A DNA stretch of 64,000 nucleotides from Sipunculus nudus (Eukaryota; Annelida; Sipuncula; Golfingiida; Sipunculidae): contig CM049306.1 in assembly GCA_026874595.1 (NCBI GenBank), positions 64,548,019 through 64,612,018 of the forward strand, given 5' to 3'. Below the pieces are notes generated by a model that ran no database searches, was not told the origin of the DNA, and saw only the letters and a program-made list of their open reading frames with translations. The number at the start of each line of letters is the position of its first letter. Position 1 is the first letter of the stretch. The position numbers were made by a program, and so were the translations under genes. Shown here piece by piece: positions 401-64,000 of this stretch.

Positions 401-2810
401 TTTTAGCTCAGCTGACTGAAAGTCATCTGAGCTATAGCGATCACTCTTTGTCCGTCGTCCGTCTGTCCGTCCGTCCGTCTGTCCGTCCGTTAACCAGGCA
501 CAAATCGTAACCGCTGGACCTAGAACCTTGTAACTTGGTATTCTGAGAGGTCCATAAAAATCTCCTTGGAAACCAGAAATTAGGTCTCTGTTACCCATAT
601 CCTTCGAGCTATGTGGCCCCAAAGTACCCCCCAGAAAAGTCAAAAATTTCATACAAAAACTTCAATATCTCATTAACTACTTGACTGTTGGTCATGATTT
701 TTGGCATACATATTGATCATGAGATGTCACATCACTTCCTGCAGACTGGTGGCGCCACCTGTATTTTTCGATTTTTTACGAATTTTTTTCTCTATTTTTG
801 AGACCTTTAAAAATGTGAACATCTGTTAACAAGGCACAAATCATAAAGACTGGACCTAGAATCTTCGTTCTTGACACACAGGGAGACCCATGATAAGTCT
901 CCATGGAAACCTGAAATTAGGTCTCTGTTACCCATATTCTTTAAGCTGTATGGGTCCAAAATACCCCCCCCCCCCAGAATAATGGAAAATTTGATACAAA
1001 AACTGCAGTATTTCAATAACTACAACACTGATGGTCATGATTTTCGGCATACATATTGATCATGAGCTGTTCCATCAGTTTCTGCAGACTGGGTGTGCCA
1101 CCTCTATTTTTTTTTCAAATTTTTACGAATTTTTTCTTTTTTTTGAGACCTTTAAAGATGTGGTTATCTGTCAACAGGGTACAAATCGCAACAACTGGAC
1201 CTAGAATCTTCATTCTTGTCATGCGAGGAGGCCCATGAAAGGTGCCTGTGGAAACTTGAAATTAGGTCTCTGTTACCCATATCCTTCAAGCTATAGGACT
1301 CCGAAGTATCCCTCAGAATAATGGACAATTTGATACAAAAACTGAAGTATCTGAACAACTAATGCAGTGATCACCATGATTTTTTGCATGGATATTGACC
1401 ATTAAGTGTTTTTATTAGTTTCTGCAGACTGGTGGAGCCACCTGTATTTTTGTATCCGCCAAAACGAAGTTTTGCGGATAATATGTTTTTGACCGAGTTC
1501 CTCCGCCGCGGCGGTGTTCGTTTCCAGAGAGCTCCTAGGAGACTAATGGAACGATTTTTCCCAAACTTACACCTATTATCGGGTCACATGTGAACTGGTG
1601 CCTAACCAATTTGCATTGACCTCTGACCTTTCCTCTCTATCCAGTGTCCATTTGTGGGTCTGTTTCCACTCATAAACCCTCATATCTCGGGAACCGTTTG
1701 ATCGATCAGGAAATAAAATTGATACAAATGTAGCCCTTGGATTGCTTTATAACATACACAAAAAATGGTGGCGCCACCTGTAACCATGTTTGCACAGTGT
1801 CCATCTGTTCATCTGCCTTGGGTTAAAATCACTCATATCTCTGCAGTGAATTGACTAATTCACCTGAAATTCGTCATGTGTATACATCCAGGATAGCTTT
1901 CTTGATTTTATGACAGGTGGCGCCACCTACGTTCACGTTCACGCTGATGACATCCAAGCTTATATCTCGGGAACCGTTTGACTGATCAGGAAATAAAATT
2001 TATACAAATGTAGCCCTTTGATAGCTCTGTAACATACACAAAAAATGGTGGCGTCACCTGTAACAATGTTTGCACAGCGTCTGTCTGTTAGTCTGCCGTG
2101 GCCTAAAATTACTCATTTCTCTGTAGTGGTTCGACATAACTGCCTAAAATTTTGCAGGTTTATACATCGTGGACAGCTTTCTTGATTTTATGACAGGTGG
2201 CGCCACCTACATTCTAGTTAACGCTGGACACATCCAAGCTCATATCTCAGGAACCATTTGACCGATTGGGCCAAAATTGTGCATGTGTTTAGATCTCACA
2301 TAGGTCTTTATCATACACAAAACTGGAGGGGTTACCTGCAAAGATTTTTGCACAGTGTTTGTCTGTTTTTTCTGCCATGGGCAAAAATCGCTCATATACA
2401 TGTAGTGGTTTGACTTTTCTGCCTAAAATTTTGCAGGTGTATACAACTTGGACAGCTTTCTGGATTTGTGGTAGGTGGCACAACCTACATACACATTTAG
2501 GCTGCAGACATCCATGCTAATATGCAACATACCTCACTCTATTTCCCCTTGCCACTCAATCCATGCCTCACTATCCGATTTTGGCAGATACATGTAGTCA
2601 CTTGTCGGTTACCCGACAACTTTTCTAGTTTTAAAAGTTTACACATTTTTCTCTATTTTTGAGATATATAAATACAGACTAAATCTTGGCCTGTTGGTTA
2701 ATCTGTTTGATGCTTCAGTTGAATGGGTATATACTACCATTCTGATGATAAAATTTCTTTTTGCGAATCTCTTCCCAGTCAGCTGAGCGTCATGACCCAT
2801 GGGTCACTTG
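401..2810 (+). mobile_element. HL2 Helentron-like element with nested HL4
   Basis: The left (5') end is T-rich followed by the hairpin at 405-433, whose arms are AGCTCAG and CTGAGCT. A CCGT/CTGT microsatellite follows at 452-490. The core has roughly 340-bp units, each with a GGTGGCGCCACC-type palindrome (about 749, 1096, 1434; the later two decayed). The right (3') end at 2793-2810 is the palindrome TGACCCATGGGTCA then CTTG then T. The sub-terminal inverted repeat is GCTCAGCTGACT. The target is a T-run: the related sequence at 5152-5180 reads straight from the left flank into the right flank, an empty-site match. An HL4 sits inside at 1451-2628. Positions 344-652 and 807-1358 contain only shadow reading frames. 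Confidence 0.8.
1451..2628 (+). mobile_element. HL4 element nested in HL2
   Basis: The 5' end is the hairpin at 1452-1480, with arms GTATCCGCCAAAAC and GTTTTGCGGATA. The 3' end is a hairpin (TTGTCGG/CCGACAA, about 2601-2618) then CTAG at 2625-2628 then T. The core carries three palindromic GGTGGCGCCACC-type units (about 1914, 2199 and decayed copies). The HL2 copy at 15260-15285 lacks the insertion: its complement runs from the T-run straight into AAAGTTTACGCA, matching the two flanks here. HL4 is therefore younger than its HL2 host. Confidence 0.75.
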
Positions 2811-4253
2811 TTCCACATTTGACCAGATATAGCGCGAGATTTCGCCAAGTATCGCAGTTTTACTATGTCAAGTTGGCCAAATGTTACCAAATGCCAAAAA
2901 CTAGACCTGAGTAGCTGTAAAAGTCGCCTAGTTATAAGCATTTCCATGATATCTCGTTTTTTTCTCGCTTGACGAGATATGGTGCGAGATTTGGCCTGAT
3001 TTCTTTTCTGGCGTGTCAAGCTGGTCATATGTTATGAAATGCCAAAAACTAGACCTGTGTAGCTGTAAAAGTCGCCGAGTTATAAGCATTTCTGTGAAAT
3101 CTCGTTTTTTCTCGTTTGACGGTAAACCGAGCGAAATTTGACGAGACTTGCAATTGAATGACTTAGAACCAAGGGGAAGCAGCCTTATGCAAAAAACTAG
3201 ACCCTTGAAACATAAATATTAACCGAGATAGAAGCCAAAAACTGCATATTTTCAGATTGTCAAGTTTAACCCACAAATTTGGTAACCATGGTAACGGCAG
3301 TACAAAGCTACATGTGCGGAGGAATAAGAAAATGTTCCTAGTTTCAGATACCACAAAAAAAATGGTGTAACGTTTAATATTTTTTGAGATATTGCAGAAA
3401 AATGATATGTTACAGTGTTTCATGTACCACGCCCCTGGTGGCTATTTCCAAAAAATGAAAAATTGATTTCGAGATATTTATAAATGACAGAAAATATATC
3501 AATTTCAAAGCCACTGTTAAAAAAATGCGACCTGTAGGTCATATTTAATGAAATCTCGGAAACTCTCGTTTGGCGAGAAATGGTGCGAGATTTGGCGAGA
3601 CTTTCAGTTTTATCATGACAAGCTGTCCATAAGGTACAAAATGACCAAAACCAGACGTCTGTAGCTTAAAAATTGACAAAGTTACAAAAAATGGTCGTGT
3701 TATTTCCAATTTCCATGATTTTTGCCCAAAAAATGTAACCATGGTAACGGCAAATTTAAGTAAGCTACATGTCAAAGGAAAGGCCAGGTGATGACGAAAA
3801 AAATGAGCTATTGCAGATGTAGATAAGCCTATTTATGGCGAAGTTATAGTGCAAAAACCGTTAACCATACCTGTCGTGACCTTGACCCTTGACCTTGGAG
3901 CAATGTTGACCAAAAACAATAGGGCACCTAGAAATCGGTTGGTCAATCAAGCCTGTAAGTTTCAAGTTGATTGATGCAAAAGTGTGACCTGGAGAGTCGT
4001 GACAAACAAACAAACAAACAAACAGACAAAGAGACAAACAGACATACGCAACTGACGAACATGCTTGCCGAAATCGAAGATTTCCGGCAAGCAACAAACA
4101 GACAGACAGACAAACAGACATACGCAACTGACCAATATGCTTGCGGAAATCGAAGATTTCCGGCAAGCAACAAACAGACAGACAAACAGACATACGCAAC
4201 TGACCAATATGCTTGCCGAAATCTTTGATTCCGGCAAGCAACAAACAAAAAAA
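2811..4253 (-). mobile_element. HL1 copy 1, right part
   Basis: This is the continuation of the HL1 core after the HL2 insertion. It holds two more 148-bp satellite units (2922, 3070), then a segment with the CTCF-like motif at 3426-3444, a TGACCTTGACC run near 3880-3895, a CAAACAGA microsatellite (4004-4040) and the hairpin array listed separately. The next HL1 copy starts within about 14 bp at 4254. The stretch 2811-3960 is near-duplicated at 5166-6310. Confidence 0.7.
4040..4245. repeat. Hairpin array 1 (three units), HL1 5' end
   Basis: Three perfect or near-perfect hairpins start at 4063, 4139 and 4211 (spacing 76 and 72). Each is about 30 bp, with arms GCTTGCCG(A)AATC and GATTTCCGGCAAGC. 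The linkers are variants of CAACAAACAGACA plus a conserved ACTGACCAATATGC-type stretch, so they are not unique spacers. The arm sequence is the HL1 sub-terminal repeat, so this is an amplified transposon end. Confidence 0.85.
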
Positions 4254-6436
4254 CTAGATGACCAGAGGTCACGCGCTTGCCGGAAATGGAAATGATACAG
4301 ACAGATAGACAGAGAGTGCATGTAGAAACAGTCATATGAATGAGCAACATTGTGGGGGCAGCAGAAACGGATAATATGTTTATTTATGCATGCTGACCTT
4401 TAACAGCTGCATATCTTTCTAGTGTAAAAGGGACCAAGTTCAAAATTTTTTCATGAAATCCCGTTAATCTCGTTTGACAAGAAGCAGTGAGACGTTTTCA
4501 GGTTTGTCATGTCAAGCTGGCCGAATGATATGAAATGCCGAAAATCAGACCTGTCTAGCTATAAAAGCCGCTGAGTTATAAGCATTTGCATGAAATCTCG
4601 TGTTTTCTCGTTTGACGGGAAATGGTGCGAGCTTTGGCGAGATTTCCAGTTTTGTCATGTCAGGTTTGTCAAATACTACAAAATGCCGGAAACTAGACCT
4701 GTCTAGCTGCAAAAGTCGCCGTGTTATCAGCATTTACGTGAAATCATGTTTTTTTCTTGCTTGACGAGATATAGTACGAGATTTGGCAAGACGAGCAGTT
4801 TTATTATGTCAAGACGGCCAAATGGCGAAAACTAGATCTGTCTAGCTGTAAAAGTCGCCGAGTTATAAACATTTCTGTGTACTCTCGTGTTTTCTCGTTT
4901 GATGAGATATGGTGCAGGATTTGGCCAGTCTTGTAGATTTGTCATATCAAACTCTCTAAATGTTATGAAATGGCGAAAACTACATCTGTCTAGCTGTAAA
5001 AGTCGCCGAGTTATTAGCATTTCTGTGAAATCTCCTTTTTTATCGTTTGACGAGATATGGTGCGAGATTTGGCCAGTCTTGCAGGTTTGTCATGTCAAGC
5101 CGTCCAAATGTTAATGAATGCCAAAAGTCGCCGACTTATATGCATTTCTGTGAAATCTCGTTTTTCCACATTTGACCAGATATAGTGCGAGATTTCGCCA
5201 AGTATCGCAGTTTTACTATGTCAAGTTGGCCAAATGTTACCAAATGCCAAAAACTAGACCTGAGTACCTGTAAAAGTCGCCTAGTTATAAGCATTTCCAT
5301 GATATCTCGTTTTTTTCTCGCTTGACGAGATATGGTGCGAGATTTGGCCTGATTTCTTTTCTGGCGTGTCAAGCTGGTCATATGTTATGAAATGCCGAAA
5401 ACTAGACCTGTGTAGCTGTAAAAGTCGCCGAGTTATAAGCATTTCCGTGAAATCTCGTTTTTTCTCGTTTGACGATAAACCGAGCGAAATTTGATGAGAC
5501 TTGCAATTGAATGACTTAGAACCAAGGGGAAGCAGCCTTATGCAAAAAACTAGACCCTTGAAACATAAATATTAACTGAGATAGAAGCCAAAAACTGCAT
5601 ATTTTCAGATCGTCAAGTTTAACCCACAAATTTGGTAACCATGGTAATGGCAGCACAAAGCTACATGTGCAGAGGAATAAGCCAATGTTCCTAGTTTAAG
5701 ATACAACGATAAAAATTGTGCCATGTTTAAAATTATTTTAGATATTGCAGAAAAATGATATGTTACAGTGTTTCAGGTACCACGCCCCCTGGTGGCTATT
5801 TCCAAAAAATGAAAAACTGATTTCGAGATATTTAAAAAAAACACAAAATATATCAATTTCAAAGCCATTGTTAAAAAAATGCAACCTGTAGGTCATATTT
5901 AATGAAATCTCGAAGACTCTCGTTTGACGAGAAATGGTGCGAGATTTGGCGAGACTTTCAGTTTTATCATGTCAAGCTGCCTATAAGGTACATAATGACC
6001 AAAACCAGACGTCTGTAGCTTAAAAATTGACAAAGTTACAAAAAATGGTCGTGTTATTTCCAATTTCCATGATTTTTGCCCAAAAAATGTAACCATGGTA
6101 ATGGCAAATTTAAGTAAGCTACATGTCAAAAGAAAGGCCAGGTGATGACGAAAAAAATGAGCTATTGCAGAAGTGGATAAGGCTTTTTATGGCAAAGTTA
6201 TAGTGCAAAAACCGTTAACCATACCTGTCATGACCTTGACCCTTGACCTTGGAGCAATGTTGACCAAAAACAATAGGGTTCCAGGGTGTTCGGTTGTCAA
6301 TCAACCCTGTAAGGGTCATGTCGATTGCTGCAAAGTTGTGGCCAGGAGAGTGCAGACAAACACACAAACAAACAGACAAATGGACATATGCAACTGACCA
6401 ACCAACTTGCCGAAATCGAAGATTTCCGGCAAGCAA
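4254..6436 (-). mobile_element. HL1 copy 2
   Basis: The left end is CTAG (4254-4257) beside the hairpin TGACC-AGA-GGTCA and the sub-terminal GCGCTTGCCGGAAAT. The interior holds a 148-bp satellite block (4440-5480), a CTCF-like site at 5779-5798, a TGACCTTGACC run (6229-6250) and an ACAAACAG tract (6355-6378). The right end is one hairpin (about 6407-6435). The adjoining CTAG at 6437-6440 begins copy 3 with no spacer, so copies 2 and 3 are exactly head-to-tail. Confidence 0.75.
4440..5480. repeat. 146-148-bp satellite block, HL1 core
   Basis: About seven successive units share the AGTCGCC(G/T)(A/T)GTTAT word (about 4563, 4706, 4851, 4998, 5126, 5274, 5420). The unit at 5126 is shortened. Every unit ends with variants of the TCTCGTTTGACGAGA dyad followed by GAGATTTGGC. 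The segment 4640-5160 resembles 1-400, and 5166-5480 resembles 2811-3130. Confidence 0.8.
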
Positions 6437-7869
6437 CTAGATGACCACAGGTCACACGCTTGCCGGAAATGACCTTGAAATTAAAAATGCATGAGCAATG
6501 AAGAAGAGTACGAAAAAAGGCTATAATTTATGTGATACAGATTAACAGTTTTCGAGATACAGCCAACATTTTACAGGATAAATTGTTTGACTGCAGCTCC
6601 CTCTGGTAGCCATATTGAGAAAATGAAAAACTCTTTATAGATATTAGTGCCAGGCATATTTCGTATCAGTTTCAAAATGATGTGTGTAAAACTGGGGATT
6701 GTAGATTGCTATATGTAAGATGCATGCACTGGCAAGTAGTTAAACTGAGGACAGCGGACAAACAGACGGCCATACTGACAAAGTGACAAATGATTCAGGC
6801 CAGATGACCCATAGATAACATCCAGAAGACTCAAGGCAAGAATATAAGCTATAATATATGTAATAACGACTAACATTTTTGGAGATATAGCCGAAAGACA
6901 ACATGTTCGAGCGGGGTTGACTGCAGCGCCCCCTAGCGGCCACAGCCAGAAAATGAAATACCTGTTTCTAGATATTAGTCTCAGATATAAGATGTACTAG
7001 TTTCAAAAAGATTCGTTAAAAACTATGGCTTGTACTTTGCCATATGTAACATGCTACACCAACCAGCGGGCGTGATTGTTGACAGCAGACAAACAGACAG
7101 ACACACTGACAAAGTGACACAAGATTGAGACCAGATGACCCAACCAGAATATAGGGAAGACTCAGGACAAGAAAATAAGCTATAATTTATGTAAGTAAGA
7201 TTAATTGTTTTGGAGATATGGTCAAAACAAGATATGTCACTGTGTATTCGCTGCAGCGCCCCCTGGCGGTCAAATTCAAAAAATGGAAAAATAATTTCGA
7301 GATATTGCTGTTGGATATAAAATATATCAGTTTCATAACAAATATTTCAAATTTGTGGCATCTAGGGTATCATTAATGATATCAGGAAATATCTCGTATG
7401 GCGAGATTTCATGCTAGAATTGGCGAGACTTGGTATTGGATCGTCGAGAACTCTTGACGGGCTACATTATGCAAAAAACCAGACCTCTCTAGCTATAAAA
7501 CTGACAAAGTTACAAAAATTAGCCCTTTTATTTTCGAAAATAATGAGTTTTCCCCAAAAATGTGTAACCATAGAAACAGCAGATTTCAGCAACATATATA
7601 TCAGAAGAAAGGCCTTGGAATGCCGATTAAAATGAGCCATGTTTGAAGTGGCTATGACAAATAGTAATGGAGATATGAAGAAAAGAGCACTTTAGGAACT
7701 TTTGATGACCTTGACCTTGACCTTTGACCTATATTGCCCAAAAACAATAGGCTTCTTGCATTTTTGATTTTACACAAACTGTGAAAGTTTGAAAGCGATG
7801 GGATCAAAATTGCGACCTGTAGAGACTGGACAGACAAACAAACAAACAGACAAACAGACATCTGCGACT

Positions 7870-8900: not shown

Positions 8901-8901
8901 A

Positions 8902-15087: not shown

Positions 15088-16551
15088 CAAGTGACCCATG
15101 GGTCATGACGCTCAGCTGACTGGGAAGAGATTTGCAAAAGGAAATTTTATCATCTGAATGGTAGTATATACCCATTCAACTGAAGCATCAAACAGATTAA
15201 AGAATAAGCCAAGATTGTATCTGAATTTATATATCTCAAAATATGGGAAAAAATGCGTAAACTTTAAAAAAAATACAGGTGGTTCCACCAGTCTGCAGAA
15301 ACTAATAAAAACACTTAATGGTCGACATCCATGCAAAGAATCATAGTGATTTCTGCATTAATTGTTCAGATACTCCAGCTTTTGAATCAAATTTTCCATT
15401 ATTCTGAGGGATACTTCAGAGTCCTATAGCGTGAAGGATATGGGTAACAGAGACCTAATTTCAGATTTCCAAAGACACTCTCACGGGCCTCCTTGCATGA
15501 CAAGAATGAAGATTCTAGGTCCAGTTGTTACAATTTGTGCCATGTTAACAGATGACAGCATCCTTAAAGGTCTCAAAAATAGAGAAAAAAATTTAAAAAA
15601 ATTAAATAAAATATAGGTTGCACCATAAGTCTGAAGAAACTGATGAAACACTCCATAATCAATATGCATGTAAAGAATCATGGTGACCTCTGCATTAGTT
15701 GGTCAGATACTTCAGCTTTTGTATCAAATTGTCCATTATTCTGAGGGATACTTCGGAGTCCTATAGCTTGAAGGATATGGGAAACAGAGAACTAATTTAA
15801 GGTTTCCACAGACACTTTTCATGGGCCTCCTTGCATGACAAGAATGAAGATTCTAGGTCCAGTTGTTACAATTTGTACCATGTTGACACATAACAACATC
15901 CTTAAAGGTCTTAAAAATAGAGAAAAAAAATTGTAAAAATGTGTAACAGATATTGAAGTTTTTGTATGAAATTTTTCACTATTCTGGGGGGTACTTTGGG
16001 GCCCCATAGCTCAAAGGATTTGGGTAACAGAGACCTAATTTCTGGTTTCCATGGAGACTTTTCATAGGTCTCTCACTGTGTCAAAATGAAGATTCTAGGT
16101 CCAGTCTTTACGATATGTGCCCTGTTAACAGTTGTTCACATTTTTAAAGGTCTCAAAAATAGAGAAAAAAATTCGTAAAAAATCTAAAAATACAGGTGGC
16201 GCCACCAATCTGCAGGAACTGATGAAACATCTCATGATAAATATGTATGCCAAAAATCATGACCATCAGTGATGTAGTAAATGAGATATTAAAGTTTTTG
16301 TATGAAAATTTTGACTATTCTGGGGGGTACTTTGGGGCCCAATAGCTCGAAGGATATGGGTAACAGAGACCTAATTTCTGGTTTCCAAGGAGATTTTTCA
16401 TTGACCTCTCAGAATTTAAAGTTACAAGATTCTAAGTCCAGCGGTTACGATTTGTGCCAGGTTAACAGACAGACGGACAGACAAACGGACAGACGGACGA
16501 CGGACAAAGAGTGATCGCTATAGCTCAGCATGACTGAAAGTCAGCTGAGCT
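15088..16551 (-). mobile_element. HL2 element, about 1.46 kb
   Basis: The left end is CAAG (15088-15091, CTTG on the minus strand) followed by the perfect palindrome TGACCCATGGGTCA (15092-15105) and GCTCAGCTGACT. The core has three to four units of about 340 bp (phrases GGTAACAGAGACCTAATTTC and CTAGGTCCAG) with a GGTGGCGCCACC palindrome near 16196. The right end has an ACAGACGGACAG microsatellite (16467-16502) and a hairpin at 16522-16551 with arms AGCTCAG and CTGAGCT. The structure is complete and uninterrupted. Confidence 0.8.
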
Positions 16552-16557
16552 ATAAAA

Positions 16558-18735
16558 CAAGGCCTACAGGCCTAGTGCGAACCTGTGCATTGGGAAATAC
16601 ACCAGATATAATGCTTCAATGCTGGACCATTACTTCTCATGTATATGAACAATGCAAGTACTAAACATTTTGAATAAGAAAAAATTACACAAACATCACT
16701 GCTGAAATTCTGGCATGGGTGCACACAACACAAAAATGATTGTAGCTGGCACCACCAGTCGTGTATACATATATACATATGCCCAATTTCAGCTGATATA
16801 TCAAATTCCTCTGTAGAAATAAGCAGGCACATACACTGTGCAAAAGTCATTGTAGGTGGCGACACCTGTCTTGTGAACGAGAAAGCCATCAAAGACATAT
16901 AGACAGGTCAAAATATCAGGCCAATACATCAAAATTACCTTGAGTCTGATGCATGGGGCTTACCAGGCTAAGGTGAGAAAGGCAGTTGCCCCGAGTGAGC
17001 TGTGACAAATTTGCTAGCTGGCTCAGGCTACTGCACTAAGTGAACTCATGACCTGCACCTGGCTAGACTGAGTGAACTTTCGACCTGTACCTGGCTGCAC
17101 TCAGTGAACTCTTGACACAGTTGACACAGTTGGTAGTCCACATGCAGCCCTGAGGGGCATGACACCCATGAGGTGATCACATGGTGGCCATGAGGTGTTC
17201 ACATGTCACCCATGAGGTGATCACATGCCTTGTACTTGGCTGCACTGACTGAACTCTTGACACAGTTGACACAGTTGGTAGTCCACATGCAGCCCTGAGG
17301 GGCATGACACCCATGAGGTGATCACATGGTGGCCATGAGGTGTTCACATGTCACCCATGAGGTGATCACATGCCTTGTGCTTGGCTGCACTAACTGAACT
17401 CTTGACCTATATCTGGCTGCACTGACTGAACTCTTGACCTATATCTGGCTGCACTCTTGATCTGTTGCCAAATCTGAAACAGTTGGCAGTTTCTCAACCT
17501 ATTTAAAGATACAAACACAATCTTGGCCTGTTGGTAAATATATTTTACACATACTGAGAGACTTTTTTTTCAAGCTGACATATTCATAAACTTTTTATCA
17601 AAATATCTAAAATAACAAAAGATGCAGTTCTTTCATTGTTAAAGGTCCAATAATTCTGCCAAAAATCATTCAAGTAAAATAATTTTTGTGCAATGTTACA
17701 GAAGTTATAATAATAATTTTGTAGAAGAACAGTTTTGCAGTCCTCAGTTTGAAATAGACATAATAATGGCCATAAGACCAACTTAAGCTTATCTGATATG
17801 ATTGAAAGAGCCTTGTCCTAGGATAATTCTTTTGAAAAATTGAACGATTCAACTTGACAGTTTCATCATAAACATTTTAAGGTGAAAGAGGCTAAAATTA
17901 TTAGGTTTTTGCCCATAAAAAAACAGGTCAATTAATGTAGGTGGCACCACAAAATCTGCAAATTCAAATATGAGTCATGTGACCAACATTTGCACAATAC
18001 TTGGTAATAAATCAAATTGGTGTAAAACCACTAAAATTCATCAAATGCATACCATTTGAACAAACTTGAGAGGGCTTGCCTCTGGGATAATTTTTGTAAA
18101 ATATTGAACAATTTGGCTGGACCATTTACAAGAAGACTTTTTAAGGTTTTTCAGCTTTTTCCCTATAAAATCTAAGTAAATGCAGATAGCAAAAAAATAA
18201 GCTGAATCCCACAACATTTGATATGTGACAGATTATTGCATAAAATCTTGGGATGGTAGCTATTGCTATTCCTGAGAAATTATGGGTTAATGTACAGATG
18301 ACCAATGACCCCCATACAAAATAAGGTCAATGCAGGTGGCGCCACCAATACCTGAATTTCATATATGACTCATGTGACCAACACTGGCATAAAATTTGGT
18401 GATCATAGCTCCGGACATTTCTGAGATTCTAAGTTTACTGTAACTCGGCCAAAATTCACCGAACTTGAACCATTTGAACAATCTCGAGACAGACTGTATA
18501 AAAGATTATTTCTGTGAAACATTGAACAATTTGGCTTGACTGTTTTGGAGGAGAAGATTTTTAAAGGTTTTTTTGCTTTTTCTCTATAAAATCTAAGAAA
18601 ATGCAGAGTTTTCAGATGGCTAATTTTTTGCATTAAATTTCATGATACTAGCTCCAGTTGTTTTCAAAATAGTATGGGTTAACGACGACGACAGACGATG
18701 CCAAACCTTCGCATTAGCTCACAGGTTCACTAAAA
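16558..18735 (-). mobile_element. HL3 element, about 2.2 kb
   Basis: The left end is CAAG (16558-16561) plus the hairpin GGCCTACAGGCC and then GCGAACCTGTG. The right end carries the inverse, CACAGGTTC(A/G)C, then TAAAAA, defining the sub-terminal repeat GCGAACCTGTG. The interior has GGTGGCACCACC-type palindromes, a 145-bp tandem duplication (17111-17400) and sentences shared with 60078-62279. It is followed directly by a second HL3 fragment. Confidence 0.75.
17111..17470. repeat. 145-bp tandem duplication plus 31-bp minisatellite in HL3
   Basis: The word CTTGACACAGTTGACACAG starts at 17111 and again at 17256, 145 bp apart. The intervening block with CCCATGAGGTGATCACATG is almost unchanged in the two copies. 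It is followed by short repeats of CTGACTGAACTCTTGACCTA. Other HL3 copies have only one unit here. Confidence 0.8.
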
Positions 18736-20102
18736 ATTACTACAGATTCATATTGAATGCAAAATTATAATACAGATACATTTCACTGATGGCAAAATCT
18801 TGAATAAAGTTGAGTATGGATACCAATTATTTATAATCCATGTACAGCCGTCTTTATATACCCACAGAGAGCTGTATACCTGTGATTTTAAACATTGCCT
18901 GGCATGAGGAATATCTAAAATGATAAATCTAATTTTTTAAAAAGCTTTTAAAAAAAACATTCTTGTCAATATTAACCATAGATAACCTGAAATCTATATG
19001 TCTAGAGGCATGATGTAACAGATGCTGATAAACTGGTGCCAGGCTAGATGTATCTGCTTCACACAGCTAACATGTGGTAAAATGACTCAATTCAATCTTT
19101 ATAATTCAGCCAAATTTCATTCTTTTGAACCATAAAAGACAATTATTATCAGAATTATTCAGGGGATTATTCCTGTAAATATTAAACAAATTGGCCTCAG
19201 TAGCGTTAGTCAAAAAACTTTCTGCAGGTTTATAACTCATATGGGAAAATACAGCAAACTGGCTAAGTTCAGCTTCCCGTAACTCAACCAAAAAGCACTG
19301 AACCCAAATCATTTGAACAAACTTGAATTATCAACATCTGAGGATAATTAATGTGTGAGATTTAAGAATTTGGCCCAGTGGTTTTTGAGAAGAAGATCTT
19401 TGTAGCCACTGAGCTAAAAACTGGCTGTTATGGCATATGACTAAATTCAGCTTCCCATAACTTAGCCAAAAGTCACTGAAAAGAGACCATTTAAACAAAC
19501 TTCAGAAAGCACTACCCTAGGATCATTTCTGTGCGATATTAAATATTTTGGCCATATGTTTTAAGAGAAGAAGTTTTTTGTAGCCCTCAGTGTGATACAG
19601 GCACTAATGACCCCATACAAAAAAGGCCGATGCAGGTGGCGCCACCAATACCTCAATTTAAGATATGACATATGTTACCAACATTGGCATAAAATTTGGT
19701 GATGATAGCTCCAGCCGTTTCTGAGATTTAAATCTTAATATACTTTTTTGCACAGTTAACAAAGTTCAACCTCCTTTAACTCGGCCAAAAATCTCCAAAC
19801 TGGAACCGTTTGAACAAACTTGAGAAAGATTGTTCCAGGGATCATATCTGTGAAATATTGAACAATTTGGCTGGACAGTTTCGGAGAAGAAGATTTTTAA
19901 AGCTATTTTAGCTTTTTCCCTATAAAATCTAAGAAAATGCAGTTAGCCAAAAAATAAGCAAAATCTGATAGTTTTTTAGATGACTAATTTTTGGCATAAA
20001 ATTTCGTGATGCTAACTCTTGCCGTTTTCAATATAGTATAGGTTAACGTACAGATGACGGATGATGCCACACCATCGCATAAGCTCACAGGTTCGCTAAA
20101 AA
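18736..20102 (-). mobile_element. HL3 fragment with its own right end
   Basis: Internal HL3 sequence (homologous to 33225-34290) begins immediately after the previous HL3 end, and the block finishes with its own GCATAAGCTCACAGGTTCGC then TAAAAA. It includes one GGTGGCGCCACC palindrome at about 19636. The two right ends show a tandem or staggered HL3 insertion. A similar adjoining pair is at 56170-57643. Confidence 0.7.
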
Positions 20103-20756: not shown

Positions 20757-20949
20757 CTAGACATTTCTTGGCACCACAGGTGCCAGAGTATCCCCAGACA
20801 TAGTAGGCCCCCACCCCCTTTATAAATAGACCCCCATTTTTAGCAGCATATACTGACACTTGGCATATTTATTGTTTATTCCATCTAACAAACCACAATC
20901 TTGTTGAAGATGTTGGTCCTGTGACCTTGATCTTTTTAAAGATGTGTCC

Positions 20950-22720: not shown

Positions 22721-23304
22721 TATAGGGTTCTTACTTTAGTGGAGGGCCATACATAAGTCATGTTTGAAATCCATATGGCTATCAACACTGGAGATATCAT
22801 AAGAGGTGTGTGATTATCACCATATAGGGCAATATTCAAGGTCAAGGCCACTATCATAGGAAAGGTCATGACCCCAATTTAAAAAAACATCATCCCATAA
22901 CCCATACCTATGTATATGCATAATATAAAAGAAATCTGTCCATTAGTTTTGACTTACAATGCTCCCAGTACTGTAAGGTAGCAATTTTGGGGGTATTAAA
23001 CGGCACGAAAACAAGTAAAGAATAATAGGTGGCGCCACCAGTTTCTGGAACATGACAACCCTATCCATGATCTTCCATCAACTTGATTTTGGGATAAATC
23101 CATGCAAGATTTCTTGAGATATTAAAGAATTTGTGTGATTTTCCCCAAAATTGGACCTATTCAAGGTCAAGGACACTCTCTTAGTAAAGGTCATGACCTC
23201 ATTTTAAATAGGCGTCGTCCTCTCACCCATATCTATACATATACCAAGTTTGGTAAAGTTCTGGAAATATTTTTTGGGTTATCGCGCCAACAAGATTTAT
23301 ATAC

Positions 23305-23331
23305 GGTGGTGGCGGCGGCGGCGGCGGCGGG
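23305..23331. repeat. GGT/GGC trinucleotide tract
   Basis: Two GGT triplets are followed by seven GGC triplets, just inside the HL5 right end. It is the only strongly GC-rich microsatellite in the window and is G-quadruplex-prone on the plus strand. Confidence 0.85.
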
Positions 23332-23377
23332 ACCGGTATGAAAACATAGTATCCCCCGACTTTGTCTGGGGATACAA

Positions 23378-49194: not shown

Positions 49195-50818
49195 CAAGGC
49201 GTACAGGCTTATGCAAACCTGTGCAATGAGATTACTCCAGGTATAATGCTTCAATGCTGGACCATTACTTTTCAAGAACATGTGTAACATGTATATGAAC
49301 AATGCAAGTACTAAAAACTTAGAACAAGAAACAATTAAACTAGATGACCAGAGGTCACGTGCTTGCCGGAAATGATGTAATGTTAGTCAGATGAATGAGC
49401 AATATCAAAGTGAAAGAAAATAAGCCATCATTTGTAAAGATTGGACCAATATTAACAAAGTTCTGAAGAATATAAGATTTTGATATGTTTTGGTCACCTT
49501 GACCTTGGACTTATTTGAATAATAAACATAGGCCTTCCAGATATCGTTACGAAAAATAACAAGAGTAAGTTACAAAGCAATTCCTGCAAAACGGTGGCCA
49601 GTAGAATTCTATATGTTAGACGCAAGAACCAGGAAGCAGGCGAAATGAAGAACAACTGAAAAACACACTAACATAGTGACAAACTAACCCAAGATTGAGA
49701 CCAGATGACTTAATTATGTTATGAAAAAACCTCAGAGGAAGATTATAAGCTATAGTTTATGTAATTGAGGTTTATAGTTTTGGAGATATGGGCAAAAAAT
49801 GATATGTTGTGGAAGTTTGGGTGCAATGCCCCCTAGCGGCCATATCTGGAAAATGAAAAATTTGTTTCATTATTTTAGTGTAAGACATAAGATGTAATAG
49901 TTTTAACAGGAATCTTTCAAAACTGTGGCCTGTAGAATGTTATATGTGAGACACAAGAAAGAGCAAGCAGGTGATTTGAGGACAACTGACAATCAGACAG
50001 ACATCCTGACAAAGGGACACAAGATTGAGACCAGATGACCAAACGAGTTCATGAAGAAAGACTTAGAGGAAAAAAATAAACTATAGTTTTTGTAATTGAG
50101 GCTTATAATTTTGGAGATATTGCCAAAACATGATATGTTGTAGAGGTTTGCACCCAGTGCCCCCTTGCGGCCGAATTCAAAAAATGAAAAAATTATTTCG
50201 AGATAATAGTGTAGGACTTATGAAAAGTCAGTTTCAAAAAGATTCCTGCAAAACTGTGGCCTCCAGGGCAAGATTACTGAAATCTCGAAATATCTCGTTT
50301 GACGAGATATTATACGAGATATTGTGAGACTCTTAATAGAATCTTGTAGTACTAGGTGAATGGTACCTGAAGCAAAAAACTAGACCTCTGTAGCTTTAAA
50401 ACTGACAAATTTAGAAAAATATCAGCACTTTTCCCCATGGTTACTGCAAATTGAGTCAGCTACACACCAGAAGACAGGCCTTGGAATGACGATTAAAATG
50501 AGCTACTGTTGAAGTAGATACGACCAATATTAACACAGATATGAACAAAAAACCGTTTTGTATACTTTTGATGACCTTGACCTTGACATTTGACCTATAA
50601 TGCCAAAAAACAATAGGCTTCCAGGACTTTGCTTGTCTACCAGCTGTGTAAGTTTGAAAGCAATTGCTGAAAAATTGTGGCCTGTAGAGAGTCCACAGAC
50701 AGACAGACAAACAAACAGACATCCATGACTGACCAACCTGCTTGCAGAAATCGAAGATATCCGGCAAGCAACAAACATCACTGCTGCAATTCTGGCATGG
50801 GTGCACACAACATAAAAA
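49195..50818 (-). mobile_element. HL3 left end, interrupted by HL1
   Basis: CAAG (49195-49198) with GGCGTACAGGCTTATGC is a decayed HL3 left end. HL3 sequence is 49195-49338 and 50772-50818; an HL1 element lies between. The join ACAATTAA / AAACATCACTGCTG matches the uninterrupted HL3 at 63473-63497. Confidence 0.75.
49340..50771 (-). mobile_element. Complete HL1 element, 1.43 kb, with empty site
   Basis: The left end is CTAG (49340-49343) and the hairpin TGACC-AGA-GGTCA plus GTGCTTGCCGGAAAT. CTCF-like sites lie at 49823-49842 and 50154-50173 (331 bp apart). The TCTCGTTTGACGAGA block is at 50282-50310, TGACCTTGACCTTGACATTTGACC near 50573-50594, an ACAGACAAACAAACAG tract at 50696-50720, and one terminal hairpin near 50739-50770. 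It is the shortest intact HL1, so it shows the unit plan of the longer copies. Confidence 0.8.
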
Positions 50819-53604
50819 CTAGAATATGGGTAGTCAATAAGCGACCACATAAATCCTCCAAAAACAGAGTGGGAAAGGTGAAGTGAGGCATGGATTGAGT
50901 GGCAAGGGGAAATAGAGTGAGGTGTGTTGCATAATAGCCTTGATGTCTGTAGCTGAAATGTGTATGTAGGTTGCACCACCTACCACAAAATCTAGTAAGC
51001 TGTCCAAGATGTATAAACATGCAAAATTTTAGGCAGATAAGTCAAACCACTACTGAGATATGAGTGATTTTAGCCCACGGCAGACAAAAAGATGGACACT
51101 GTGCAAAAATGGTGGCAGGTGGCACCACCAATTTTGTGTAAGATTAAGAGATATGTGAGATCTATACACATGCAAAATTTCAGGGTGTTATGTCAAACCA
51201 GTCCTGATATATAAGCCTGAATGTGTCCAGCGTATACATAAATATAGGTGGTGGCACCTGCCACAAAGTCAAGAAAGCTATCCAAGATGTATAAACATGA
51301 AAAATTTTAGGCAGACAAGTCACAACACTACTGAGATATGAGTAATTTACCCACGGCAGACAAACAGACGAATGCTGTGCAAAAATGGTGGCAGGAGGCA
51401 CCACCAATTTTGTGTATGATTAAAAGTGATGTGAGATCTATACACATGCAAAATTTCAAGGGGATATGTCAAACCAGTCCTGAGATATAAGCCTGAATGT
51501 GTGCAGCATATACAAAAATGTAGGTGGTGCCACCTGCCAAAAAATCCAGAAAGCTATCTAAGATGTATAAACATGCAAAATTTTAGGCAGATAAGTCAAA
51601 CCACTACTGAGATATGAGTGATTTTAGCCCACGGCAGACAAACAGATGGACGCTGTGCAAAAATGGTGGCAGGTGGCACCATCAATTTTGTGTATGATTA
51701 AGAGCTATATGAGATCTATACACATGCAAAATTTCAGGGGGATATGTCAAACCAGTCCTGAGATATAAGCCTGAATGTGTGCAGCGTATACATAAATGCA
51801 GGTGGCGCCACCTGCCACAAAATCCAGAAAGCTATCCAAGATGTATAAACCTGCAAAATTTTAGGCAGATATGGCAAACCACTGCCGAGATATAAGTGAT
51901 TTTATCCCACGGCAAACAAACAGACGGATGCTGTGCAAAAATGATTGCAGGTGGCGCGACCAGTTTTGTGTATGATAAAGAGATATGTGAGATCTAAAAA
52001 CATGTAAAATTTTTGCCCAATCGGTCAAATGGTTCCTGAGATATGAGCTTAGAGGTGTGCAGCGTAAATTTGAATGTAGGTGGCGCCACCTGTCATAAAA
52101 CAAGAAAGCTGTCAAGGATGTATAAACCTGCAAAATTTTAGGCAGATAAGTCAAACCACTACTGAGATATGAGTGATTTTAGCCCACGGCAGACAAAAAG
52201 ATGGACACTGTGCAAAAATGGTGGCAGGTGGCACCACCAATTTTGTGTAAGATTAAGAGATATGTGAGATCTATACACATGCAAAATTTCAGGGTGTTAT
52301 GTCAAACCAGTCCTGATATATAAGCCTGAATGTGTGCAGCGTATACATAAATATAGGTGGTGGCACCTGCCACAAAGTCAAGAAAGCTATCCAAGATGTA
52401 TAAACATGAAAAATTTTAGGCAGATAAGTCACACCACTACTGAGATATGAGTGATTTTACCCACGGCAGACAAACAGACGAACGCTGTGCAAAAATGGTG
52501 GCAGGAGGCACCACCAATTTTGTGTATGATTAAAAGTGATGTGAGATCTATACACATGCAAAATTTCAAGGGGATATGTCAAACCAGTCCTGAGATATAA
52601 GCCTGAATGTGTGCAGCATATACAAAAATGTAGGTGGTGCCACCTGCCAAAAAATCCAGAAAGCTATCTAAGATGTATAAACATGCAAAATTTTAGGCAG
52701 ATAAGTCAAACCACTACTGAGATATGAGTGATTTTAGCCCACGGCAGACAAACAGACGGAAGCTGTGCAAAAATGGTGGCAGGTGGCACCATCAATTTTG
52801 TGTATGATTAAGAGCTATATGAGATCTATACACATGCAAAATTTCAGGGGGATATGTCAAACCAGTCCTGAGATATAAGCCTGAATGTGTGCAGCGTATA
52901 CATAAATGCAGGTGGCGCCACCTGCCATAAAATCCAGAAAGCTATCCAAGATGTATAAACCTGCAAAATTTTAGGCAGATATGGCAAACCACTGCCGAGA
53001 TATAAGTGATTTTATCCCACGGCAAACAAACAGACGGATGCTGTGCAAAAATGATTGCAGGTGGCGCGACCAGTTTTGTGTATGATAAAGAGATATGTGA
53101 GATCTAAAAACATGTAAAATTTTTGCCCAATCGGTCAAATGGTTCCTGAGATATGAGCTTAGAGGTGTGCAGCGTAAATTTGAATGTAGGTGGCGCCACC
53201 TGTCATAAACCAAGAAAGCTGTCAAGGATGTATAAACCTGCAAAATTTCAGGTGGATAAGTCAAACCACTGCCGAGATATGAGTGATTTTATCCAAAGGC
53301 AGATGAACAGATGGACGCTGTGCAAGAATGGTTGTAGGTGGCACCACCAGTTTTGTGTATGATAAAGAGCTGTGGAAGATCTATACACATGCAAAATTTT
53401 GGCCCAACTGGTCAAACAGTTCCTGAGATATAAGCTTGGATGTCTGCAGCATAAACGTGATGTAGGTGGCACCACCTGTCATAAAATCAAGAAAGCTGTC
53501 AAAGATGTATACTCATGCAAAATTTCAGGTTGAAAAGTCCAACCAATGCAGAGATATGAGTGTTTTTATCCCAAGGCAGATGAACAGATGGACGCTGTGC
53601 AAAA
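50819..53604 (-). mobile_element. HL4 element with 1.11-kb higher-order repeat
   Basis: The left end is CTAG (50819-50822) with AATATGG and hairpin GTAGTC/GACCAC. The core has palindromic units every 128-149 bp, mostly CpG-decayed (GGTGGCACCACC, GGTGGTGCCACC). A four-composite block 51031-52139 is repeated almost unchanged as 52140-53249, including shared odd changes such as GGTGGCGCGACC near 51951 and 53060. The right end is truncated, passing directly into HL3 at 53605. Confidence 0.8.
51031..53249. repeat. Two-copy higher-order repeat of 1,109 bp
   Basis: AGGCAGATAAGTCAAACCAC begins at 51031 and at 52140. The copies differ at only scattered bases by eye. The length equals four 277-bp composites, so the duplication arose by unequal exchange in register. 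Confidence 0.85.
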
Positions 53605-53813
53605 ATCTAAGAGAATGCAGTTAGAAAAAAAATAAACAAATGATGACTGATGACTGATTATTTGCAAAAAATTTGCCAGTTTTTAGATAGGTATGGTTGA
53701 CTAGAGACGACACATGATGCACTGACGCACAATGGATGATGCAGCAACATTGCATAAGCTCACAGGTTCGCTAAAAATCCGATGATTTTTTAGATGACAA
53801 ATCTTTTGGAAAA
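53605..53813 (-). mobile_element. HL3 right-end fragments
   Basis: Two partial HL3 pieces: 53605-53776 ends with GCATAAGCTCACAGGTTCGC then TAAAAA; 53777-53813 is internal HL3 sequence that is broken by the HL2b at 53814 and resumes at 55710. Confidence 0.7.
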
Positions 53814-55709
53814 CAAGGGACCCATCGGTCACGGCGCTCAGCTGAAGTTTGAAATTTTTGCAAATGCAAAATATGCAAAATATTCTACTGTAATGTTTTT
53901 CATTTATATAAGCATATGAGAAGCTAAGAGGAAAGGGGCCCTCCTACTTGGTTATAGTAAAGTTCTTAATATATGATTGCAAACTAATACTCTGACAAGA
54001 CTGTCATGAAGAAAAACAGTGACAAATTTGAGATACTGTGATGCATATGAAAAATTTACAGATGGACAGCCAAATGGACAGAATGGACTAATACCTAAAT
54101 TTCACTTTCAAGGGAATAATGCATTTAAGCTTATATATAAGCCTATTTTTTTAGCATATCCACTTTTTCCATTAATAGTTTTTATCTGATTCATTTTTTT
54201 TTTATTTACAAGTTTTATAAATTTGTAATAAAAAAACTGAAAATATAAGTTAAAATATTAGAATTCAAAGTTGCAATTATTATATATCCAGAGTGTAGCT
54301 CATATTGGGTCATATTATGCATACACATATATTTTATTATTTTTAAATCACTAATGTTTAAACTGAATTTAAAAGAGAATAGTGCCACAACATGGCATCT
54401 AGAAGATTTTTCCTTGAATCACTTTTAAAAAGTTTTGCACATTGGAGTTTTCAGTACATGCTTAATTTTATTCACTGAAATGAAATAAAAGATTCAGTAA
54501 ATTTGATAAAATAAAAACATCTTTTCAAATAAAGTATACACACATGTTGGTTGAATGAGGGACAAACAATATCATTGTGCTAATTACTATCTCAGCTATA
54601 ATTTTTTATTACTGGAATTAATAGTCAATTTCACACCTGGTGAAGTTTTTACTCTTCTGAAGTAAGGAATTACTTATCTGATGAACATCCACACTTTCAT
54701 AGCAATACACCACTTTGTGGACACAATTAAATGTGCACTTTAATCATTGTAACCCTGGTGCTACAATACAAAATCTAAAATGTAGCATAGCCAAGAATAA
54801 AATAAAATACAGAAAATTATAACATTCACATAGTTAATGCACCATCTGGAAGGGGGGGGGGGAGTACAGGGCAGAGGGGAAGCCTGCTAGTAGTGGCCAA
54901 GCTGAGCCAAGGCAAGCTGCCTGGGGTCTGTTACAAAATGCAAGTGAAGGCTGTACTACCAGGTGGACTGGATGTAAACAACACTTGACATGGTGTATGG
55001 AAACTTGAATAAAACCTACTCTTTTCAATCAATTCCTTTGAAATTTCGGATTTTAAAAGATTAAATTCTTATCTATATATGTTGTGAAAATTAAATCAAC
55101 AGTGCTTACAGGAAAAAAACATGCTATTGCCAAAGTTGGACAAAATTTAAAGTATTGATTTTTTATTTATGCTAATAACTTGACAAATTTGTAAAATTCA
55201 GATCTAATTTTGGGTAAAAAATTGAACCTTGATTAAATAAAGTTATATTCCTGAAAAAAAAGTCTCCAGCTTCAGCAATTCTCATGTTAGGTGAGTAAAT
55301 ATATTTCCTGATTTTTTCAAAATCGCATTATATTTGGCCCATAACTCCCAAATAATACCCAATACTGACCTAATTTTTGGTATGTTCATAGAAAATGTAT
55401 GGAAGAATATGAATACTAAATATGATGAAAAACAGATTAGTGGTTTTGATATTAGGCAGCCTTGGAGTGTAACAATGGTTTTTTACGGAAAAACAGAGGT
55501 TTTTCCTTAATATCTTGAAGCAACAAAGTCCTAATGACCCAATTTTCGGTATTGTAGGAGATTTTGGGGACATCTAATTGTATGGAAAATTTTGGATTGG
55601 TAGGTCGTACGGTTTTAAAACGTGCCCTGTTAACGGCCGGCCGGCCGCAGGGACAATGGACAAAAGACCACTACTATAGCTCAGATGACTTATAGTCAGC
55701 TGAGCTAAA
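53814..55709 (-). mobile_element. HL2b element, 1.9-kb diverged copy
   Basis: The left end is CAAG (53814-53817) with GGACCCATCGGTCACGGCGC; the right end is the hairpin 55678-55706 (AGCTCAG/CTGAGCT) preceded by GGCCGGCCGGCCGC. HL2b phrases are seen at 54980-55600 (TTGAATAAAACCTAC, TTTGGCCCATAACTCCC). A 13-base G run lies at 54852-54864. HL3 flanks join (TTTTGGAAA / ATTGGTGATGCTAGC). Confidence 0.7.
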
Positions 55710-56165
55710 AATTGGTGATGCTAGCTCCTTCCCTTTTTGAGAAAGCTATGACACACGACGGACGACGGAAGACAGACAATCATTGCATAAGCTCACAGAT
55801 TTGCTAAAAATGCAAACCAAGTTTTTTTCAAACAGCTGAAAGATATAGTTCCAATAATCTGGGAATTCTGCATCTAGACATTGTGTCTAGACGTCTAGAC
55901 GCTGTGTCTAGATGTTTAGACACATTGTCTAGACACCCGCCAGAGCCAGGTCAGTTGCCATATTGATGTCTGGACCCCACCTGGTTGTACTGAGTGACCT
56001 CTTGAATTGGCTGCTGAATCTCAGCATGTTGTCAAATCTGTTTTCAAACACAGAAAGCCTTTTCAATTGGCTACAATGCTTTTTTAAAGCTGTATTTACC
56101 CAATCTTTTCTTATAAAACTGGCAGAACACTACGATAGAATAATTCTTGTAAAGTTTAAAGCTTA
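55710..56165. other. HL3 end and short palindrome cluster
   Basis: HL3 sequence ends at about 55810 (GCTCACAGATTTGCTAAAAA). Next comes an unassigned 130-bp stretch with clustered GTCTAGAC palindromes (55885-55934), then HL3-like sequence from about 55940 (CACCTGGTTGTACTGAGTGA). No coding frame is supported. Confidence 0.55.
55885..55934. repeat. Cluster of GTCTAGAC palindromes
   Basis: Perfect GTCTAGAC occurs at 55885-55892, immediately again at 55893-55900, and at 55927-55934, with partial copies near 55906 and 55915. GTCTAGAC is the palindromic Smad-binding element of animals; here it may just be a mini-repeat. Confidence 0.7.
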
Positions 56166-59036: not shown

Positions 59037-59081
<45 letters not shown>

Positions 59082-59106
59082 GCTTTTTCTCTTTCTCTCT
59101 GTCTCT

Positions 59107-59150
<44 letters not shown>

Positions 59151-60077: not shown

Positions 60078-62279
60078 CAAGGCCTACAGGCCTAATGCGA
60101 ACCTGTGCATTGGGAAATACACCAGGTATAATGCTTCAATGCTGGACCATAACTTCTCATGTATATGAACAATGCAAGCACTAAACATTTTGAATAAGAA
60201 ACAATTACACAAACATCACTGCTGAAATTCTGGCATAGGTGCACACAACACAAAAATGATTGTAGCTGGCACCACCAGTCTTGTATACAACAAAGCTATG
60301 AGAGATATATACATATTATACATATGCCTGATTTCAGACTGATATATCAAACCCCTCCTGAAAATAAGCAGGGAAACACACTGTGCAAGAATTATGGTAA
60401 GTGGCACCACCAGTCTTGTATAGGACAAAGCTATTCAATATGTATATATATGCCCAATTTCAGGCAGATATTTCAAATTCCTCTGTAGAAATAAGCAGGT
60501 ACATACACTGTGCAAAAGTCATTGTAGGTGGCGACACCTGTCTTGTGAACGAGAAAGCCATCTAAGACACATAGACAGGTAAAAAAATCAGGCCAATACA
60601 TCAAAATTACCTTGAGTCTGATGCATGGGGCTGTCCAGGCTTAGGTGAGAAAGGCAGTTGTCCCCGAGTGAACTGTGACAAATTTTGCTGGCTCAGGCTA
60701 CTGCAATGAGTGAACTCATGACCTGTTGCATAATCTGACACAGCTGGCAGTCTGCCAAAGCTATAAATAGATCAAGGCTGAACTTTGGTGCCACATCTGA
60801 TGGCAAGTCTGCTAACACTATAAATAGAATGCAGCTACTGCACTGACTGAACTCCTGACCCATACCTGGCTGCACTGAGTGAACTCTTGATCTGTTGCCA
60901 AATCTGAAACAGTTGGCAGTTTCTCAATCTATTTAAAAATACAGACACAATCTTGGAGTGTTGGTGAATCTGTTTGCATTTTTTTTCCAGCTGACATATT
61001 CATAAACTTTTTATCAAAATATCTAGAATAATTAAAGATGCAGTTCTTTCACTGTTAAAGGTCCAATGATTCTGCCAAAAATCATTCAAGTAAACTTGAA
61101 CAAAGGCCACCAAAGAATAATTTTTGTGCAATGTTACAGAAGTTATAATTGAAACAATAATTTTGTAGAAGAACAGTTTTGCAGTCCTCAGTTTGAAATA
61201 GACATAATAATGGCCATAAGACCAAAAAAAGCTTTTCTGATATGGTTGAAATAACCATGTCCAAGGATAATTCTTTTGAAAAATCGAACGATTCAACTTG
61301 ACAGTTTCATCATAAACATTTTAAGCTGAAAGAGGCTAAAATTATGAGGTTTTTGCCCATAAAAAAACGGTCAATAAAGGTTGCACCATAAAATCTGCAA
61401 CTTCAAATATGAGTCATGTGACCAACATTTGCACAATACTTGGTAATGCTAGCTTCTGTCATTTCTGAGATTACTATGTCAGTATGCTTACTTGGCCAAA
61501 TGACTGTTCAAATTCATGTAACTCCACTAAAATTCATCAAATGCAAACCATTTGAACAAACCTGAGAGGGCTTGTCTCTGGGATCATTTCTTTTAAATAT
61601 TGAACAATTTGGCTGGACCGTTTACCAGAAGAAGACTTTTAAAGGTTATTCAGCTTTTTCCCTATAAAATCTAAGTAAACGCAGATAGCAAAAAAATAAG
61701 CTGAATCCCACAAGATTTGATATGTGACAGATTATTGCATAAATCTGGGGATGGTAGCACTGCCATTCCTGAGAAATTATGGGTTTATGTACAGATGATC
61801 AATGACCCCCGTACAAAAAAGGTCAACCAAAAATGTGACCAACACTGGCATAAAATTTGGTGATGATAGCTCCGGCCATTTCTGAGACAGTCATTTTAGT
61901 ATGCTTTTTTGGACAGATGACTAAGTTCAACTTCCTGTAACTCGGCCAAAAATCACCGAACTTAAACCATTCAAACAAACTTGAGAAAGATTTTTCCAGG
62001 AATCATTTCTGTGAAATATTGGAAAATTTGGCTGAACAGTTTATGAGAAGAAGATTTTTAAAGCTTTTTCAGCTCTTTCACAATAAATCTAAGAAAATGC
62101 TGTTAGCCAAAAAATAAGCAAAATCCGATAGAGTTTTTTAGATGACTTATTTTTTGCATAAAATTTCATGATGCTTACTCTTGCCGTTTTCAAGATAGTA
62201 TGGGTCAACGTACAGACGCCAGACAACTGACACCTGACAACCCCACACCATCGCATAAGCTCACAGGTTCTCTAAAAAT
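60078..62279 (-). mobile_element. Complete HL3 element, 2.2 kb
   Basis: CAAG (60078-60081), GGCCTACAGGCC and GCGAACCTGTG at the left; GCTCACAGGTTC then TCTAAAAA at the right. It parallels 16558-18735 without the 145-bp duplication. TATAAATAG words lie at 60772-60780 and 60819-60827. No HL4 is inserted at 60255, so it is the empty form of the HL3-HL4 composite. Confidence 0.8.
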
Positions 62280-63336: not shown

Positions 63337-63529
63337 CATGGCCTACAGGCCTAATGCGAACCTGTGCAATGAGATTACACCAGGTATAATGCTTCAATGC
63401 TGGACCATTACTTTTCAAGAACATTTGTAACATGAATATGAACAATGCAAGTACTAAACACTTAGAACAAGAAACAATTAAATAAACATCACTGCTGCAT
63501 TTCTTGCATGGGTGCACACAACACAAAAA
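63337..63529 (-). mobile_element. HL3 left end
   Basis: CATG (63337-63340, a changed CAAG) with GGCCTACAGGCC and GCGAACCTGTG. It gives the uninterrupted AACAATTAAATAAACATCAC that serves as empty site for the HL1 at 49340. It is broken at 63530 by HL4 at the same base as at 50819. Confidence 0.75.
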
Positions 63530-64000
63530 CTAGAATATGGGTAGTCAACAAGGGACTACGTGTATCCGCCAAAATCAGAGTGGGAAAGGTGAAGTGAGGC
63601 ATGGATTGAGTGGCAAGGGGAAATAGAGTGAGGTGTGTTACATAATAGCCTGGATGTCTGCAGCCTAAATGTGTATGTAGGTTGCGCCACCTTCCACAAA
63701 ATCCAGAAAGCTGTCCAAGATGTATAAACATGCAAAATTTTAGGCAGATAAGTCAAATCACTACCGAGATATGAGTGATTTTAGCCCACAGCAGACAAAC
63801 AGACAGATGCTGTGCAAAAAGGGTGGCAGGTGGTGCCACCAATTTTGTGTATGATTAAGAGATATGTGAGATCTGAACACTTGCAAAATTTCAGGTGGAT
63901 ATGTCAAACCAGTCCTGATATATAAGCCTGAATGTCTGCAGCGTATACATTAATATAGGTGGCGCCACCTGCCACAATAATCAAGAAAGCTATCAAAGAT
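63530..64000 (-). mobile_element. HL4 element, left part (runs off window)
   Basis: CTAG (63530-63533), AATATGG, hairpin GTAGTC-AACAAGG-GACTAC (63541-63559) and GTATCCGCCAAAA, the best-preserved HL4 CTAG end. Satellite begins near 63660, with GGTGGCGCCACC near 63958. It continues beyond 64,000. Confidence 0.8.

Follow-up and report, generated by a model that had tools for sequence, protein, structure and literature searches.

We analysed a window of 64,000 nucleotides from Sipunculus nudus (GenBank assembly GCA_026874595.1, contig CM049306.1, positions 64,548,019 to 64,612,018 of the forward strand; feature coordinates below are positions within this window unless a contig is named), in which a first-pass annotation had described repeat families ending in a hairpin, CTAG or CTTG, and a T. 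The families HL1 to HL6 are very probably non-autonomous Helentrons (HINEs), i.e. presumably non-coding rolling-circle transposons of the Helentron kind, for which Helentrons elsewhere in this genome would supply the Rep-helicase-endonuclease proteins in trans. The elements follow one plan: T's with a 5' sub-terminal repeat, a microsatellite, a core that is mostly tandem, an inverted 3' repeat, a hairpin and CTAG or CTTG. The genome searched was the 1.43-Gb assembly of 153 contigs of which the window is part, and the families examined were HL1 to HL6; for a seventh, HL7, the annotation gave no sequence.

Hairpin, CTAG or CTTG, and T were found in all six families in the window. The tetranucleotide is CTAG in HL1 (3' ends at 4254, 6437 and 49340, minus strand) and HL4 (2628, plus; 63541, minus), and CTTG in HL2 (2810, plus; 15088, 29077 and 59348, minus) and HL3 (16558, 29859 to 29873, 60078 to 60092 and 63337 to 63351, minus, the last reading CATG). 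HL5 and HL6 have their 3' ends at 20757 and 42938, both on the minus strand. A bare scan of the window for a hairpin next to the tail gave 16 of 228 CTAGT/CTTGT sites under loose criteria and 8 of 228 under tight criteria, against 57 and 17, respectively, of 1,641 control sites with 13 other tails. This enrichment of 2 to 3.4 times is modest and the blind scan is suggestive only, so that the proof of the end grammar rests on whole ends repeated genome-wide.

Exact 3'-end strings of 30-39 bases, the HL4 string ending before CTAG, were therefore counted in the genome, giving 138 matches for HL1, 5,862 for HL2, 3,809 for HL3, 2,908 for HL4, 50 for HL5 and 1,720 for HL6. The same patterns reversed, used as control, had 0 genome matches for each of the six families. 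The 5' end string of HL2 was matched 1,350 times. Taken with the ends in the window, this repetition bears out the hairpin, CTAG/CTTG and T ends for HL1 to HL6.

Boundaries were evaluated on 58 fetched copies (7 of HL1, 18 of HL2, 10 of HL3, 10 of HL4, 7 of HL5 and 6 of HL6), taken from listed places, mainly on contig C1, and all used. T follows the tetranucleotide at +1 in 57 of the 58 and at +2 in 55. Past CTAG/CTTG, similarity falls to background in HL2 to HL6, as the first-pass annotation had expected of true ends, and the flanks are unrelated among these 51 copies. Mean pairwise identity at +11 to +40 is 0.28 for HL2, 0.26 for HL3, 0.29 for HL4, 0.27 for HL5, 0.32 for HL6 and 0.36 for HL1. 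Over the 30 bases that precede the string, the identity is 0.73-0.75 for HL1, HL5 and HL6 and 0.62 for HL3; for HL2 it is 0.41 (three copies with those bases), which means that just the last 31 bases are tightly kept in this family. At the 5' end, T occupies -2 and -4 to -6 in all of ten HL2 copies and -3 in nine of them, with a background identity of 0.32 beyond the T's, and the left flanks of four HL5 copies are unrelated up to TTATTG or TTGTTG. In eight cases both ends of HL2 were located on the same strand, and these copies measure 1.2-2.3 kb.

Sub-terminal inverted repeats are paired at both ends in HL1, HL2, HL4, HL5 and HL6, and over 11 bp in HL3. A mirror adjoins the 5' repeat in HL1, HL2, HL4, HL5 and HL6, and a palindrome lies near the 3' end in all six families. 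Mirroring had been proposed for HL1 to HL5, and it stands for HL1, HL2, HL4 and HL5. The statement that the HL6 match is merely approximate had to be revised: other copies match exactly (GGCGGGGGCAT against ATGCCCCCGCC) and the window copy alone has decayed.

These features can be followed in individual copies. An HL2 copy at 403 to 2810 (plus; 5' TTAGCTCAGCTGACTG, 3' TGACCCATGGGTCACTTG) contains an HL4 copy at 1452 to 2628 (plus) with 5' GTATCCGCCAAAACGAAGTTTTGCGGATA and 3' hairpin TTGTCGGTTACCCGACAA followed by CTTTTCTAG. The remaining copies with two ends are on the minus strand. The HL3 copy at 16558 to 20101 has the 3' end GGCCTGTAGGCCTTG, in which the last C of the hairpin doubles as the C of CTTG, and the 5' sub-terminal repeat GCGAACCTGTG at 20096; the HL3 5' end is TTTTTAGCGAACCTGTG, and the G of the repeat is found at 20096, 39092, 53771 and 56737 on the minus strand. 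HL5 at 20757 to 23380 has 5' TTATTGTATCCCC with mirror (5' end at about 23378), a 289-bp tandem core and 3' GGCACCTGTGGTGCC followed by AAGAAATGTCTAG. HL6 at 42938 to 43954 has 5' TATGCCCCCGCC with mirror, a 180-bp tandem core and 3' GTGTCGTTCCGACACATCTAG, and HL1 at 49340 to 50770 has 5' TTGCTTGCCGGATAT with mirror and 3' TGACCTCTGGTCATCTAG. A further HL2 copy lies at 15088 to 16553.

Empty sites were sought for 17 insertions by comparison with a small amount of sequence and were found for three: HL2 at 403 to 2810, which has empty counterparts in a duplicate within the window (about 5125-5210) and at locus L027, HL5 in locus L086, and HL4 at 1452 to 2628. Counted from the first base outside the T tract to CTAG/CTTG, the filled site has two extra bases in all three insertions; these are TT for HL2 and, for HL5, two bases in T-rich sequence. 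The annotation had named a target-site duplication typical of another transposon class as evidence against its reading; apart from these roughly two T-tract bases, none of the three empty sites showed a target duplication.

Head-to-tail junctions bear on which end owns the T's. For HL2, 47 such junctions fall within 8 bases, and in 16 the A is preceded by exactly TT. HL1 has 72, of which a count by eye gave 15 with exactly TT and 55 with TTTGTT. In the window exactly TT separates the HL1 3' end at 6437 to 6454 from an HL1 5' end, and the 3' end at 4254 to 4271 is followed by T's and an HL1 5' module, both on the minus strand. Since a read-through junction needs no target, TT at such junctions suggests that the element itself contributes two of the flanking T's. 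Some junctions could come from adjacent insertion, and at the three empty sites a TT duplication could in principle stand in place of element-borne T's. Seventeen of the 72 HL1 junctions lie on C37 (11) and C48 (6), mostly at intervals of about 11.85 kb, so that on these two contigs HL1 is part of one larger tandem unit.

Proteins of the type that could move such elements are present in the genome. At least 143 Rep matches were found, with open frames up to 2,426 amino acids among the matches listed; none of those listed lies inside the window, where Rep was the coding check made. OTU and Rep occur together in locus L004, and PIF1 and an Exo_endo_phos endonuclease in L025. HL2- and HL6-type 3' ends lie downstream of some Rep copies with no matching 5' end upstream, and were taken as unrelated insertions. 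Two Rep copies, on contigs C7 and C11, share 97.6-99.7% identity across some 18 kb, which is why their ends were not reached. In L025 to L029 the Rep copies are 83-93% identical in frame, and detectable similarity is gone within tens of bases past the stop. Three Rep copies on C7 (48525832, 48556035 and 48587672) are spaced at about 31 kb, and an HL1 3' end lies some 9.2 kb from each of them on the other strand; this is a local triplication.

The non-autonomous Helentron reading is thus backed by the abrupt 3' boundaries, T on both sides, the lack of a classical target duplication and the paired sub-terminal repeats, and also by the 5' mirror and microsatellite, the tandem cores and the Rep, PIF1 and endonuclease proteins in the genome. 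Five results weigh against it. No autonomous element with HL ends was found in 9.5 kb downstream of six Rep copies and in more sequence around three lineages, with 0 links in 5 pairs and 4 cross pairs. HL1 is without a clean boundary: identity at +3 to +10 is 0.74, and in 6 of 7 copies similarity runs on beyond the end, contrary to the expected loss, because another HL1-type microsatellite follows there (TTTG/TCTG, like its own). HL3 has no clear mirror beside its 5' repeat, the two extra bases in the HL4 comparison are a T and an A, both in homopolymers, and 14 of the 17 empty-site trials gave nothing.

We also considered canonical non-autonomous Helitrons, with 5' TC, 3' CTRR and insertion between A and T, and regard them as very unlikely. 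CTRR accommodates CTAG, the hairpin is close to the 3' end, and A/T insertion is possible at HL5 and one HL4 site on the assumption that the 5' end includes both T's; but CTTG of HL2 and HL3 does not fit CTRR, the 5' ends open with T's and not TC, and the paired sub-terminal repeats and the T on both sides argue against it, so that the combination of 5' TC, 3' CTRR and A/T insertion does not describe these elements. Cut-and-paste miniature inverted-repeat transposable elements (MITEs), or plain satellites spread by segmental duplication, would explain inverted repeats at both ends, tandem cores and some copies duplicated along with their surroundings (L003/L004), but are hardly credible given three empty sites without a MITE-kind duplication, a 3' hairpin and fixed tetranucleotide outside the inverted repeat, and unrelated flanks in 51 copies of HL2 to HL6.

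For non-autonomous Helentrons, the hairpin would stop the copying of a single strand, and CTAG/CTTG-T would be the site of nick and join. Some of the head-to-tail copies may be read-through products, two of the flanking T's would be carried by the element, and each set of ends would answer to its own autonomous lineage.

The annotation further proposed that the families keep their ends and swap their cores. This holds within the HL2 group, where like ends on unlike cores are real. Two HL2 copies and three variant copies (26023 to 28649, 34297 to 38934 and 53814 to 55709, all minus) have about 35-96 bp of 5' sequence in common (76-91% identity), and in two of the variants the last 31-32 bp also align with both HL2 copies (88-90%); in the variant at 26023 the short 3' match against HL2 missed the E-value limit of 1e-4, though its end letters are alike. 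No core match between the HL2 copies and the three variants was found at this limit. Across HL1 to HL6 the proposal does not hold: each family has its own sub-terminal repeat and hairpin, the plan alone is common, and several cores share a sequence. The HL2 group gives a clear-cut example of similar ends combined with dissimilar cores.

The cores had also been called unrelated, which is wrong for HL2, HL3, HL4 and HL5. Their cores carry a common 12-bp palindrome, GGTGGCGCCACC (the box), with 79 places in the window within 2 mismatches (35 exact) against 0.5 in Markov copies. Core comparisons covered 28 pairs in two orientations, with z values uncorrected for this number; HL3 and HL4 cores are distantly similar also outside the box (z 5.3), and the HL2 and HL4 core flanks show no similarity (z 0.2-0.3). 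In HL5 the box is single, and 4 of 4 copies have it at a distance of 329-349 bp from the 5' end (23028 to 23039 in the window copy, about 340 bp from the end, no strand assigned). On the minus strand an HL4 5' end and 277-bp tandem core (30024 to 32388, 5' end at 32388) has the box every 129/149 bp or so. A second HL4-type tandem core at 50964 to 53606 (no strand assigned) has 19 boxes in register from 50969 to 53476, with no register place without a box; the ends of the element holding it were not found. In the window the box is absent from HL1 zones, HL6 and the three HL2 variants, and of two HL6 loci fetched, one has no box and the other, L093, has two that may lie in inserted elements. The 126 kb around Rep genes contain just one box within one mismatch. 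A related string, AGGTGGCGCCACCT, has 41,719 genome matches; all 14 window matches lie in stretches assigned to HL4, so the genome count mainly reflects HL4 copy number and is by itself no proof of sharing between families. A set 'HL2b' or 'HLx' was rejected as a separate family, since the places 18335 and 19635, at least, fall in the HL3 copy at 16558 to 20101.

We read the box as a relic of an old common core, kept by descent, for which a function is possible too. That it is kept because a host protein (a zinc finger such as CTCF) or a transposon protein binds it, and is not just a relic, we hold to be rather unlikely. Four families with different ends carry it, HL2 and HL4 core flanks are dissimilar, its distance from the 5' end is similar in the four HL5 copies, and it outranks all 98 other 12-bp windows for conservation in the HL4A, HL2 and HL3 sets; but 8 of 98 windows are kept as well as the box in HL4B and 4 of 98 in HLx, and most copies were chosen by the box itself, a bias in its favour from which the HL4 array at 50969 to 53476 is free. 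The CpG of the box survives in 12 of 21 monomers of one set and 11 of 20 of another, against 5-11 for six other CpG sites, and shows no clear protection. The one-sided extension ACTGGTGGCGCCACCT occurs 19 times in element sense and once in antisense (six spans of known strand), which points to descent, and HL1, window HL6 and the three HL2 variants do without the box. The CTCF core is AGGTGGCGC. Literature searches for a link of CTCF to the box gave nothing usable, and a full-text search of one literature collection for the box string gave one unrelated paper and no description of the box. If a protein does bind the box, tens of thousands of dispersed binding sites would have been sown genome-wide by transposons, with one site per 130-150 bp or so in HL4 arrays, which become testable.

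Several copies in the window are nested or adjoin one another. On the minus strand, HL4 sits at apparently one HL3 spot (tacaatcatt / TTTTTGTGTTGTG) in three window copies, seen as 5' ends at 32388 and 47557 and as the 3' end at 63541, nested in HL3 upstream of the CATG end at 63337; probably an HL3-with-HL4 composite was copied as a unit. At 16553-16558 (minus) an HL2 5' end directly follows an HL3 3' end; HL2 seems to target T-runs next to other HINE ends. The HL3 3' end at 60078 and an HL2-type 3' end are separated by about 30 bp. At 55873-55934 there are three copies of a 21-bp unit, TCTAGACACTGTGTCTAGACG, itself nearly palindromic. Rfam matches in the window were 0.

The anatomy of HINEs is known from mites, flies and oyster (PMC4067079, PMC7492417), and the six abundant families are further examples of this known type; the end grammar and the class given in the first-pass annotation are right. 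Added here are six abundant HINE families with sharp 3' end-points from one large genome. The closest comparison is Cg_HINE of the Pacific oyster (PMC7492417), which, as far as its text goes, shares with the HL families a 5' sub-terminal repeat, mirror, GTCY/GTCC-type microsatellite and tandem core, a 3' sub-terminal repeat and palindrome, TT targets and no target duplication. Cg_HINE likewise comprises several families with unlike cores whose partner was not found, its group 2 has similar ends on dissimilar cores as in the HL2 group, and two short core segments are common to otherwise unlike monomers. The sequences are other ones as far as that text shows, and its main text names no terminal CTAG/CTTG (0 occurrences of either). 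Proto-Helentron-Pi of Phytophthora infestans (PMC4067079) resembles the HL families in its 5' TT and 3' CTAG, and differs in being autonomous, without endonuclease and inserted between A and T. For HINE-Mo and DINE-1 the same source leaves open which end owns the T's; the TT at the HL junctions and the two extra bases at filled sites bear on this, the junctions suggesting two element-borne T's.

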